DNA from: Dolomitihabitans soli
Lineage (GTDB): Bacteria; Actinomycetota; Actinomycetes; Streptosporangiales; Streptosporangiaceae
Assembly (NCBI RefSeq): GCF_022213955.1
Contig: NZ_JAKNTW010000003.1
Coordinates: 186,001 to 250,000, forward strand
Direction: 5' to 3'
DNA length: 64,000 bases
Part shown: piece after piece, positions 886 through 16,799 of the stretch
How positions within the stretch are numbered: the first letter of the stretch is position 1
Layout of the letters: each line of letters starts with the position of its first letter
Notes under the pieces: model-generated
Seen by the model: only the letters and a program-made list of their open reading frames with translations
Databases searched by the model: none
What the model was told of the DNA's origin: nothing
Translations under genes and position numbers: made by a program

Positions 886-1480
886 GAGAGGCTCTCACGC
901 CGCCTGGGTGCGGAGGCGGAGCACCTCAACCAAGACGGATCGCTGATCGACTATGCCCGGCGCCGCGCACTGTTCGCCAACCAGGGAGAATTCATCACTC
1001 TCCACCACTGGTCATCGCTCCGAACGCGCCGACGAAGCGATTTCGCCCAGACGCACATCCACGCACAGCGATGGCTCTATGAGGCTGACCGGCAGTCCCG
1101 CCGAAATCGCTCCCAGCCAGATCGCCGCCAACGACTGCCGCAGCCGCACCGCCTACAGCACCTTCCGCATGCGCCTGCTGCCCTCCGAGACCAAGCTGCT
1201 CCAGAAGGCCGGCGCCGAACTGCTCCACAGCAACGGCATCGACGAGCCACTGACCTGGCAACCTACCTTCCGATTCTCCCCAGACCAGCTTGCCGCTCTG
1301 CCCCGACGAGACCCCGACGCTATCGACATCACCGCCGTCCATCAGGCATTCCTCCAGGACAGCTATCCGAGCGCCAAGCAGATCGCCACAGCGTGCGAAA
1401 CCACGAGCGAGTTCGTTCGCTACATCCTCGACGCACACCCTGTCGACAGACCAATCCTGACCATCGGTCCCCGCAGCTGA
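886..1480 (+). pseudogene. Frameshifted accessory protein remnant (TniQ-like flavour, unconfirmed)
   Basis: Two adjoining frames make one apparent protein. Frame 1 (886 to ~1083) reads ERLSRRLGAEAEHL...DYARRRALF...AQRWLYE. Frame 2 (from ~1081) reads RLTGSPAEIAPS...FRMRLLPSETKLL and runs to a stop at 1480. A single frameshift near 1080 would restore WLYERLTGSP. I have seen similar YxRRR...WLYERLTGS patterns in actinomycete accessory proteins next to TniQ or transposon genes, but I cannot name the family. There is no clean start codon. The call as a broken gene is better supported than any function. Confidence 0.45.
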
Positions 1481-2613
1481 GGAAACCGCCATGCCGGTGA
1501 GACTGACCTTGCGCCAAGCGCATGAGACAGTTCGAGAAACCGCAGGTCACACAAGATCAAGATGTCACGAAGACTGAGACCCTACGAGTTGCAGGGTCTC
1601 AAATTTCGCTGCACAGTCTCGCTGCACAGTCTCGCTGCGCCTATGAAGCGTCTGTGAGACACCACGGGTCAGCGGCCTGCCGAGCCGAGCGTCGTCTCAG
1701 TTCACCGCGAGGAAGTGGAACGGGAACTGAGGTAGACCTCAGTGAATCGGCGAGAGACGGCCAGAAAATGCGCAGGTCGCAGCGCGGTCAGCCACACATC
1801 AGGCCTTGTCGTCGTCGCAGTGGTAGCGCTCTCGCAGCAGTTGCTGCTCGCGCTCCGACAACCCCGACACGGCCAGAAACCCCCCGGACTCGTCCGCGCC
1901 CGTCCAAGGCTGTGCCGCCAGGCGTACCTGGCCAGGTCAGCACGCCGAACGAGCTCGTCCTTATCGCCCGCTGGCGCCACACGCTCGGTCACATGGTCAC
2001 CATAGCGGTGGCGACGGCGTGCCGACAGCATGAAGGCGGCATAGCCGTGCCCCGGGACGCATGGGACAGAGGCGAACCCGGGGCTTATGCCACCCACGCT
2101 AGCAGCCAAGACCTGGCTTGAGGATGAAGGAGACCATCTCGGTCCGGACGACGCGGAACAATGACAGGGCAGACGCGGACCTATGACAGCGGGCGACGCA
2201 GATCTTTGACCATACGGGGCCCTGCGACGCGTTCCATGCTTCCAGTCGGCAAGGGTCAGATGATCTCTCACACGGCTCATCACCTCCTCACGGGTACGCC
2301 GGTGAGCACCGCAGGTCGCAGCCTTGCCGGTCAGGGCGGGGAGCCATCAACGCTCGCATCGCCTCCCAGACGCGATCAGACCAAAGGCCGACCGGAATCC
2401 GCTGTTCTCAGCACCCCCGGGACGAAGCAGGCCAACCAGAGACTTGGGGTCCCGTCTACGGCTTCGCTCGCGGGGTTCGTCGTAAATGTTGCCAAAATCC
2501 TTGGCGAATCCAGCGGAACGCCGTCACCGTCATAGATCTGCGCCTCTGGGTGTTGTCGCGCAGCGCTCAAAATGGCAGGTCAACCGCCATATGCATGGCT
2601 CTCACTGTCATAG
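1481..2613. other. 1.1-kb stretch without a recognisable gene
   Basis: No frame here resembles a known family. A minus-strand segment ending at 1799 contains LSEREQQLLRERYHCDDDKA before a stop and may be the tail of a lost gene. Tandem copies of gctgcacagtctc lie at about 1608-1640. Isolated copies of a (C/G)GCAGGTC motif at ~1540, ~1770, ~2308 and ~2570 resemble part of the repeat array at 3.4-3.9 kb. Codon-phase structure is weak throughout, which fits degraded DNA. Confidence 0.4.
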
Positions 2614-3063
2614 GGCCGCGTCGTTCGTTGCCGAAGGTCTGCGTTTCCGCTGTCAACGGGCCTGCGCGTCACAACCATCGCCATCCCGCGCGGCAGCCAT
2701 CCGCTGACCGACCCGGTGGCCGCCTGCCGTGACTGGCTGCACGCCCTCGACCAGGCCGGACACGCCACCGGACGACTACTGCGGCGGGTCGACCGGCACG
2801 GCACCATCGGCCCCTCGCTCGGCGCCGACGCAGTCAACGTCATCGTCCGCGACCTGGCCGTCCGCGCCGGCGTGCCCTCCGCCGACACGGTCACCGCGCA
2901 CAGCCTGCGTGCCGGCGGCGCCACCGTCGCCTACGCGGCCGGCGTCCCGGTCGCGGTCATCGCCAAACACGGCCGCTGGGCCCCCGCCTCACCCGTCGTG
3001 CTCCGCTACATCCGCGCCGTCGACCGCTGGCGCGACAACGCCATGCGCAACGTCGGTCTTTGA
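2614..3063 (+). pseudogene. Tyrosine recombinase (phage integrase family), C-terminal half only
   Basis: This frame is open from 2614, right after an in-frame TAG, with no suitable start. It encodes only the catalytic end of a tyrosine recombinase. HSLRAGGAT supplies the HxxR pair. HGRWAPAS gives the downstream His/Trp block, and VVLRYIRAVDRW supplies the presumed nucleophilic Tyr. The N-terminal SAM-like domain and the first catalytic Arg are missing. A separate recombinase N-terminal scrap lies at 17.7 kb. I infer a truncated, inactive integrase from a former mobile element. Confidence 0.75.
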
Positions 3064-3378: not shown

Positions 3379-3909
3379 GTGGCAAAGTCGCAGGTCAACT
3401 AAGTGACCAGCCTCAGGTAGGTCTCGCTCGCTGATCTGGCCGGACATCCCGTGACCAACGTCGGACACCAGTGACCAAACCGCAGGTCAGCGAAATGACC
3501 AATCGCAGCACGTAAGCAGAGGCGCTCCCCGGGGGCTTTGCCGCCACGAGCAAGCCAGACCTGAGACCGACTCGAAGCGCTGACATCTCATGGCATTGCT
3601 TGCTGACATGCTGTGGCAAAACAGCAGGTCATCTTCCGTACCGGGGTTGTCAGCACACGGCACATTGCCGTGGCCTGTCAGTGGGATTGGCGGGGGATTC
3701 GTGCACGGATACAGGGTCGAAGGTTGAAGAGCACCGAGGTCATCGCCCCGCACGCCCCCCGCAAAAGGACGCTGATCCGGCTGGACGCATACCGTGACTC
3801 CAGCTCGCGATCGTGCTGTGACCTGTGTAAATAGCCGTCAGACGACGGAGCACCTCGTGGCACACCCGCTGACACCTTGTGGCAAAAGCCCAGGACAACT
3901 TGGTGGCAA
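3379..3909. repeat. Degenerate array of GTGRCMA half-sites spaced 20-24 bp
   Basis: GTGGCA or GTGACC hexamers recur in the same orientation at 3379, 3403, 3451, 3471, 3495 (as ATGACC), 3613, 3857, 3879 and 3903. Neighbouring copies start 20-24 bp apart, about two helical turns. The spacer often carries GCAGGTCA or CCAGGACA followed by AACTT-like bases. Two short frames overlap the area but show no protein signature. Multiple direct sites at an element's end are known for IS21- and Mu-like transposase ends and for iterons; which of these applies cannot be decided here. This array fills most of the gene-free gap at 3064-4020. Confidence 0.6.
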
Positions 3910-4020
3910 TCCGCACGCACACCCCAAGCACGCACTCCGGGCCGACAGTAACTTGCGGGAATTGACATTCTCGTGAGTTGCACGCCTCGTTGTGGCGCGC
4001 AATGAATCAGATTTTTTGAA

Positions 4021-4042
4021 TTTGATTTTCTGGAAAATCAAA
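4021..4042. promoter_or_regulatory. Perfect 22-bp palindrome upstream of the coiled-coil gene
   Basis: TTTGATTTTC and GAAAATCAAA form perfect 10-bp arms around a 2-bp centre, in a strikingly AT-rich patch of otherwise GC-rich DNA. It ends 17 bp before the GTG start at 4060. KfrA-type proteins are known to bind operators in their own promoters, so autoregulation is a reasonable inference. Confidence 0.65.
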
Positions 4043-4059: not shown

Positions 4060-5202
4060 GTGCAGACAGAGACGACGGTGAGGCCCTGCAAGCACTGCGG
4101 GACGGAGATCGAGCAGCGGCGGGGGAGGGGACGGCCCAGGGTCTACTGCCCCGAAGGTGAATGCCAGGCGGCGGCGAAGAAGGACCGGGAGTTGCGGCGG
4201 GCGACGCCAGGGCTGGAGGGTTCGCTGGCCAGGACCGAAGAGCTCTATGAGCGCATGGAGAAAGGGCTGGCCGCGGCGATCGCTCCGCTGGCGCAGGTGC
4301 TGGCCGAGGAACTGAGCCCCGCGGGGGTGGAGGCCAGGCTCAGCGCCGTACAGGCGGAGGCGCACACGCGGGTGGCCATCGCGCGCACTGAGCGGGAACA
4401 GGCGTTCGAGCAGGTACGGCTCGCACGTGAGGCCGCCGAACACGCCCGGCGCGAGCGCGATGAGACACATGAGCGCATGCGTGAGGCCGGGGCGGAGCGG
4501 GACGCGGCGCTGAATGACGCGGAGACCGCCCGCGAGCAGGCGCTGGCGGCGCTACGTGAGGCCGCGAGCACCGAACGGCTGGCACGCCAGGCCGAGAAGG
4601 AGGCGATACGGCGGGCGGAGGTGGCCGAACGGAACCGCGACACGGCGGTGCGGGAACTGGCGGAGCGGATGGAACAGGCGGCCGACGAGACCCGGGCGGC
4701 TGTGGCGCGTGCCGTACAGGCGGAAGGAGAGGCACGTTCGGCTCGTCAGGAGCGGGACGGCGCGCAGAGCGCGGCGGAGGAGGCACGGCAGGCGACACGG
4801 CAGGCCGAGCAGGCCGCAGCGGCGGCGCAGGCGAGCGCGGCGGCGGCCGGGGCCGAACGGGAGCGGGCGATCGCGCGGGCCGAACGCGCCGATCAGACCC
4901 ATGCCGCCGCGATGGCCGAGGCCGCCCAGGCTCGTGCGAGCGCGATGGCCGAGGCCGCTGAGACGAGGGCGCAGGCCGTACAGGCTCAGGAGCGGGCGGC
5001 GCGGGCCGAGGAGCAGGCCGCGGCGGCCGAGTCGGAGTTGCGCACGGCCGTCGTCCAGCGGGAACGGCTGATCGGGGAGTTGGCGCTGGAGCGGGCTCGC
5101 GCCGGCGACCTGCGCGCGGAGATGGCGGCGTTGCGCGCGGAGGCAGCCGATCTTCGCGAGCGGGCGGTCACCGCAGAGATCCGTGCCGGGGAGGGTGGTT
5201 GA
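4060..5202 (+). CDS. Zinc-finger / long coiled-coil protein, KfrA-like
   Basis: The product is 380 residues from a GTG start. The first ~40 residues hold a CxxC...CxxxxC pattern (CKHCGTE ... YCPEGEC) that looks like a small zinc-binding fold next to a basic GRGRPR patch. Residues ~55-375 are almost pure Ala/Glu/Arg/Gln heptads and should form a very long coiled coil. Plasmid KfrA proteins combine an N-terminal DNA-binding part with such a coiled coil, but no KfrA helix-turn-helix is evident, so the name is by analogy. No clear ribosome-binding site precedes the start; a palindrome sits just upstream. The setting of recombinase scraps and repeats suggests an origin in a plasmid or integrative element. 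Confidence 0.65.
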   Translation: MQTETTVRPCKHCGTEIEQRRGRGRPRVYCPEGECQAAAKKDRELRRATPGLEGSLARTEELYERMEKGLAAAIAPLAQVLAEELSPAGVEARLSAVQAEAHTRVAIARTEREQAFEQVRLAREAAEHARRERDETHERMREAGAERDAALNDAETAREQALAALREAASTERLARQAEKEAIRRAEVAERNRDTAVRELAERMEQAADETRAAVARAVQAEGEARSARQERDGAQSAAEEARQATRQAEQAAAAAQASAAAAGAERERAIARAERADQTHAAAMAEAAQARASAMAEAAETRAQAVQAQERAARAEEQAAAAESELRTAVVQRERLIGELALERARAGDLRAEMAALRAEAADLRERAVTAEIRAGEGG

Positions 5203-16715: not shown

Positions 16716-16799
16716 CGCCGGTCAACCCCGTCCACTGTCGGCCGACCGTGTCCCCGCCTCGTCAGCGTCGTGTCATGGTTGTGTCACGGTCGCGCCGAC
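16716..16799. promoter_or_regulatory. 84-bp control block, copy 2, with AfsQ1-type box (upstream of ddl)
   Basis: Second copy of the block at 12451-12534, in the same orientation and ungapped. GTCAT at 16772 and GTCAC at 16783 are again six bases apart. It ends ~60 bp before the ddl start on the minus strand, matching the placement of copy 1 relative to afsQ1. On the other side lies the VOC gene at 16856. Confidence 0.8.

Follow-up and report, generated by a model that had tools for sequence, protein, structure and literature searches.

A mixed repeat array upstream of a conserved coiled-coil gene in Dolomitihabitans soli: probable remains of Tn7-like transposon ends at a preferred site

The window analysed here comprises 64,000 nucleotides of Dolomitihabitans soli (contig NZ_JAKNTW010000003.1, positions 186,001 to 250,000), belongs to a contig of 259 kb in a genome of 10.8 Mb, and raises the question of what kind of element leaves a dense run of short direct repeats between a recombinase and a coiled-coil gene. 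The first-pass annotation had described the run as an array of GTGGCA/GTGACC hexamers, suggested transposase end sites or iterons, and held that the array should be abandoned if its units were no more frequent than in shuffled sequence. That comparison leaves the array standing. Nine directly oriented hexamers lie in 3379-3909, starting on the + strand at 3379, 3403, 3451, 3471, 3613, 3818, 3857, 3879 and 3903, with none on the - strand of this region; dinucleotide shuffles of the region contain 0.63 on average and at most 5, and none of 1000 reaches nine. No other 531-bp stretch of the window has a higher hexamer density. The sequence GTGGCAAANNNGCAGGTCA, allowing up to three mismatches, occurs at eight places in the window against 0.39 expected, four of them inside the array region. 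A regular spacing of 20-24 bp, as first reported, holds within sub-clusters (24, 20, 22 and 24 bp) but not across the remaining gaps (48, 142, 205 and 39 bp). The array is better described by a bipartite unit, (TGACA/GGACA/GGTCA)-N4-6-(TGGCA/TGACC/TGACA), eight of which occur in the array region compared with 0.05 per shuffle and a maximum of one in any shuffle. The outlying copies reported nearby proved to be partial matches (CCGCAGGTCA at about 1.54 kb and GGCAGGTCA at about 2.57 kb), the GGCAAA half being absent at the right distance. No second cluster of at least four units was seen in 250 of the 259 kb of the home contig. Three bipartite units stand in a row at 16749-16785 of the window, on the - strand.

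A 28-bp inverted repeat (IR, 3951-3978) follows the array, which occupies the interval from 572 to 35 bp before it. Its position between recombinase and coiled-coil genes is as first described, but the recombinase gene is only a C-terminal remnant of a tyrosine recombinase, here int-A (residues 238-369 of 369), whose PF00589 match falls under the Pfam cut-off. Arrays directly upstream of the IR in related loci differ in their letters but have a common plan. The end types named in this analysis are T1 (TGACA-N5-TGGCA), T2 (GGACA...TGACC), T3 (TGTCA...CTGCG, reversed), T4 (TGACA...TGCAG), T5 (TGACA...TGACG/TGACC) and T6 (CGCCA...GAGAC). The features of the window are as follows.

953..1480, + strand: remnant of a TniQ-family target-selector gene (homology over 1082-1453; tblastn matches actinobacterial proteins at 31-37% identity, several of them annotated as TniQ)
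2151..2673, - strand: T3 miniature element with inverted multi-site ends (523 bp; 67% identical to a 566-bp module of locus L029)
2665..3063, + strand: int-A remnant, tyrosine recombinase C-terminus (92% identity to the L029 frame of 369 aa, over its residues 238-369)
3379..3508, + strand: array cluster of GTGACC/GGACA units, T2/T5-like (units at 3393, 3442, 3463 and 3485)
3578..3690, + strand: T1 left cluster (direct TGACA-N5-TGGCA units, then inverted half-sites)
3855..3915, + strand: T1 right cluster (terminus ATCCGCA, 35 bp before the IR)
3951..3978: IR, ACTTGCGGGAA-N6-TTCTCGTGAGT, 28 bp, putative attachment or recognition site
4024..4039: AT-rich palindrome GATTTTCTGGAAAATC, promoter region of the coiled-coil gene
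4060..5202, + strand: conserved coiled-coil gene (by eye, a coiled coil and a Cys-rich N-terminus; no Pfam family)

We propose, with a probability of about 0.68, that the array consists of the accreted remains, mostly miniature, of Tn7-like transposon ends at a preferred attachment site. Tn7-like transposons with a TnsA/TnsB transposase and a TniQ-type selector, together with their miniature derivatives, would recognise a conserved site that includes the IR and insert in a single orientation, a few tens of bp before it. Each end would carry several bipartite, putative transposase-binding sites of 20-24 bp. Newer insertions would hit beside or inside older ends while the cargo decays, so that successive ends pile up into a mixed array, in an order of accretion that we infer. 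The T1, T2, T4 and T5 ends would thus be used by TnsA/TnsB-type enzymes, and the IR is the likely sequence read by the target selector.

The coiled-coil gene has 85 relatives in actinobacteria, 80 loci of which were kept, in genera that we take to belong to the Streptosporangiaceae (our assumption for all but Nonomuraea). The encoded protein is widely conserved and has a Cys-rich N-terminus (CKHCG...YC..GEC). The IR precedes the gene in 64 of 82 loci (the home locus counted; one in a shortened form), and a stretch resembling GATTTTCTGGAAAATC appears in most of the upstream regions inspected by eye. In the home genome the IR is single-copy at up to three mismatches. A related site was found in 38 of 200 family genomes, in one copy in 32 and at two places in 6, and a reversed-pattern control gave 0. 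Among 30 inspected loci with the IR pattern, 26 have the coiled-coil gene and four do not. Second copies of the palindrome ACTTGCGGGAA-N6-TTCCCG..AGT lie at the centres of loci L122, L123, L124 and L127, with the coiled-coil gene absent nearby, and this palindrome may be a regulator's operator instead of an attachment site. In Herbidospora and Acrocarpospora (L058, L062, L079 and L091) another palindrome, CATAACGAGGATTATG, takes the place of the IR, about 110 bp before the coiled-coil gene. No widely shared ORF flanks the coiled-coil gene on either side, so variability is not limited to the upstream side; ORFs with homologues at five or more other loci number 8 among 275 upstream and none among 251 downstream, which provides no contrast as a test for a hotspot.

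At this site the T1, T2, T4 and T5 ends share a preferred position and one orientation. Of 75 distinct IR-bearing loci, 30 have a terminal unit of one of these types no more than 150 bp upstream of the IR, and 0 of 1500 shuffled segments do, the consensus units having been derived from the same loci on which they were counted. These 75 loci are what remains of 110 after removal of 17 duplicates and 18 loci that lack the IR, with orientation taken from the coiled-coil gene. No unit of these types faces the opposite way near the IR in any of the 75. Measured to the IR, the nearest unit stands at 35-45 bp in 19 of the 30 loci, nine of these at 35-38 bp, within a full range of 21-95 bp; T4 is the tightest, at 35-38 bp in six of eight loci (32 and 50 bp in the other two). 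Types are stacked within single loci in L035, L042 and L104. Another explanation, that the coiled-coil protein binds the array as an operator or partition site, draws on the binding of repeats by plasmid coiled-coil DNA-binding proteins and on the arrays lying immediately before the coiled-coil gene. We regard it as very improbable: array sequences vary among species with clearly related coiled-coil proteins, and a T1, T2, T4 or T5 unit is absent from this place in 45 of the 75 IR-bearing loci.

The chief rival to the Tn7-like reading takes the arrays as accessory (arm-type) sites of int-A and the IR as its core site; together they would be a module for integrase attachment or for resolution, in which the coiled-coil protein acts as helper. 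This reading fits the 11-6/7-11 geometry of the IR. It also fits the finding that 11 loci out of 81 have an int-A gene or remnant upstream (in one case on the opposite strand, in another a fragment of 22 aa), and that the window shares with L104, L105, L047 and L080 the succession of int, left cluster, right cluster and IR. Because int-A adjoins several arrays the idea keeps some weight, but we consider it rather unlikely. Homology between T1 loci in BLAST comparisons mostly ends within 2 bp of the ...CCGCA terminus, beyond which the flanks differ (in four pairs it runs 5-13 bp further). DNA homology therefore mostly breaks at the array terminus, tens of bp upstream of the IR, instead of at the core site, which favours transposon termini over integrase attachment sites. 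Moreover, int-A proteins that are about 90% identical accompany differing array types, most loci have no int within 4 kb, most genomes with the IR pattern carry it only once (32/38), and T6 ends belong to tnsA elements.

With the mismatch limits applied, four of 180 family genomes contained T1, each time at the coiled-coil locus (assigned by gene in fetched loci), two of 47 genomes contained T2, again each at this locus (by coordinates), and eight of 29 contained T3 DNA, with all ten places at the locus (by coordinates). Against strict exclusiveness counts the first unit of the window, GTGGCAAAGTCGCAGGTCA, which has an exact copy in another genome at a locus without the coiled-coil gene (L092) and a related unit in L093. 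The L092 copy lies at about 1500 on the reverse strand; by eye, it is one of two such sites that face each other next to a recombinase-like frame, while the L093 unit, at the locus centre, stands singly next to a radC-like frame. The T6 terminal motif is weak on its own (8 of 74 loci against 33 of 1480 shuffles, with two reverse matches besides). Plasmid BLAST returned no match to T1 array DNA and four weak, short matches to T3 DNA. A multi-copy mobile element of the home genome was also considered as the source of the array and rejected, the T1 end occurring there only once.

Some arrays retain both ends of a short module. In the T2 modules of L037 and L053, and in the T3 modules of the window and L029, the left and right clusters align as inverted repeats with scores equalled in 0 of 500 shuffles, and the modules measure 0.5-0.6 kb. 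The right end of the window's T3 module cuts into the recombinase gene. No gene was recognised inside this module (2151..2673), and the modules in general are presumed to be gene-free. MITEs are miniature inverted-repeat elements, and the T2 and T3 modules resemble them in size and in their inverted ends; they differ in occurring at one locus only among the genomes searched. Inverted T1 ends were detected in L042 (1 of 500 shuffles as high). The T1 cluster in the window has a direct partner and no significant inverted one, no inverted T1 cluster was found in 250 kb of the home contig, and T5 clusters likewise gave a strong direct alignment and no inverted one. Judged from their arrangement, the direct units that lie beyond the inverted left end may be what remains of an earlier end that a newer element entered.

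What links the locus to Tn7-like elements is a set of gene remnants and, in relatives, T6 ends beside tnsA. A TniQ/TnsD-type target selector survives at 953-1480 as a remnant whose relatives on actinobacterial plasmids accompany tnsA and a Mu-type transposase or AAA ATPase. A Pfam scan of the remnant ORF was empty and the TniQ model misses 953-1480; the only match to this model in the home genome lies at a contig edge (C20:52-393, L192), above the Pfam cut-off. A tnsA remnant lies 10.8 kb upstream of the coiled-coil gene in the home genome (C43:179289-179792) and shares 56-57% identity with the tnsA of an annotated locus on a plasmid. The best match to the window array, and to its 3379..3508 cluster, in the 16.6 kb upstream abuts this remnant (score 46 against a shuffle maximum of 35, n = 40); the array beside the remnant has the same orientation as that of the window, whereas plain inverted ends would predict the opposite. 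A second remnant of an int-A-family recombinase, on the reverse strand, adjoins the tnsA remnant (C43:178362-179051; L096, 6362-7051). L017 has T6 ends immediately before the IR and a tnsA gene next to them. In L084 a tnsA remnant adjoins one to two degenerate T6 units, here just upstream of a different palindrome, and in L172, L173 and L174 multi-unit T6 ends precede tnsA. The T6 terminus upstream of tnsA in L172 is doubled in tandem (TGTCCTGTCTCACGAGACC twice), stacked ends again.

Intact elements with the window's ends are a different matter. No TnsB match was obtained in the home genome at E 1e-15, and the window is therefore classed as probable remnants instead of an intact Tn7-like member. 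A TnsB fragment was found in L017 only, and at the coiled-coil locus none of the T1-T5 ends was seen to have tnsA directly next to it. The T1, T2, T4 and T5 patterns were absent from 20 TnsB loci (which include about 1.5 kb of flank), and no intact element with such ends was found. The lack of an adjoining tnsA would suit an origin of the ends from the IS21 family (IstA/IstB) or from other elements of Mu type that have no TnsA, and IS21-type ends also have multiple sites and a terminal CA. We think this quite improbable, given that what remains in the home genome is TniQ and tnsA remnants, and that a preferred site and orientation are a habit of Tn7. Of the options first offered for the array, iterons find no support; multi-site ends of the Mu-type (TnsB) kind are the best match, and the TniQ and tnsA remnants, the preferred site and orientation, and the T6 ends beside tnsA point to Tn7-like elements. 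A TniA/TniB element beside a related recombinase on a Nocardia plasmid was rejected as a source, as TniA/TniB homologues are absent from the loci (E 1e-3) and no such array was seen on that plasmid.

The finding is a new site and a remnant set of an already known kind of element. Passages of PMC8649781 present arrays of putative TnsB sites as a general mark of Tn7-like elements and describe an Actinobacteria-dominated TnsB clade. Our loci share with that clade the end arrays of putative TnsB sites, the tnsA and TniQ homologues and the neighbouring elements that yield multiple ends. They differ from its members, as those passages portray them, in being mostly remnants, in the site upstream of a coiled-coil gene, and in that an intact element with the window's end type was not found. 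The same passages of this 2021 survey give the actinobacterial group as not experimentally characterised, and the literature searched contained nothing joining 'Tn7-like' with Streptosporangiaceae or with Nonomuraea. If the proposal is true, actinobacterial Tn7-like elements would have an attachment site shared across a whole family, and the diverged end arrays would make up a natural series that could inform on TnsB specificity and on the choice of target.

For Tn6022 and Tsy, parts of PMC10293859 describe a target selector, TnsF, derived from a tyrosine recombinase. Common to those elements and to the present locus is Tn7-type insertion linked to a tyrosine-recombinase protein. Unlike TnsF as described there, int-A retains catalytic-looking residues (by eye) and has a selector role only by proposal; comM, the target in that system, is not the target at the coiled-coil locus. 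It is conceivable, if unlikely, that int-A, alone or with TniQ, serves as target selector, and that an actinobacterial Tn7-like lineage and its miniatures revisit one recombinase-core-like site across the family.

The chromosomal dif site was rejected as an identity for the IR. Compared with the actinobacterial dif sequence given in a portion of PMC3025954, a dif-like match with two mismatches lies at C44:77893 and not at the IR; C44:77893-77916 (L099) is likely the dif site of the home genome. Another Tn7-like group, with ends starting TGTAGG, was observed in L163-L166 and L181, lying in L163-L166 just after the apparent 3' end of a dnaB-like gene. Genome G202 carries two tnsA copies about 6.7 kb apart.
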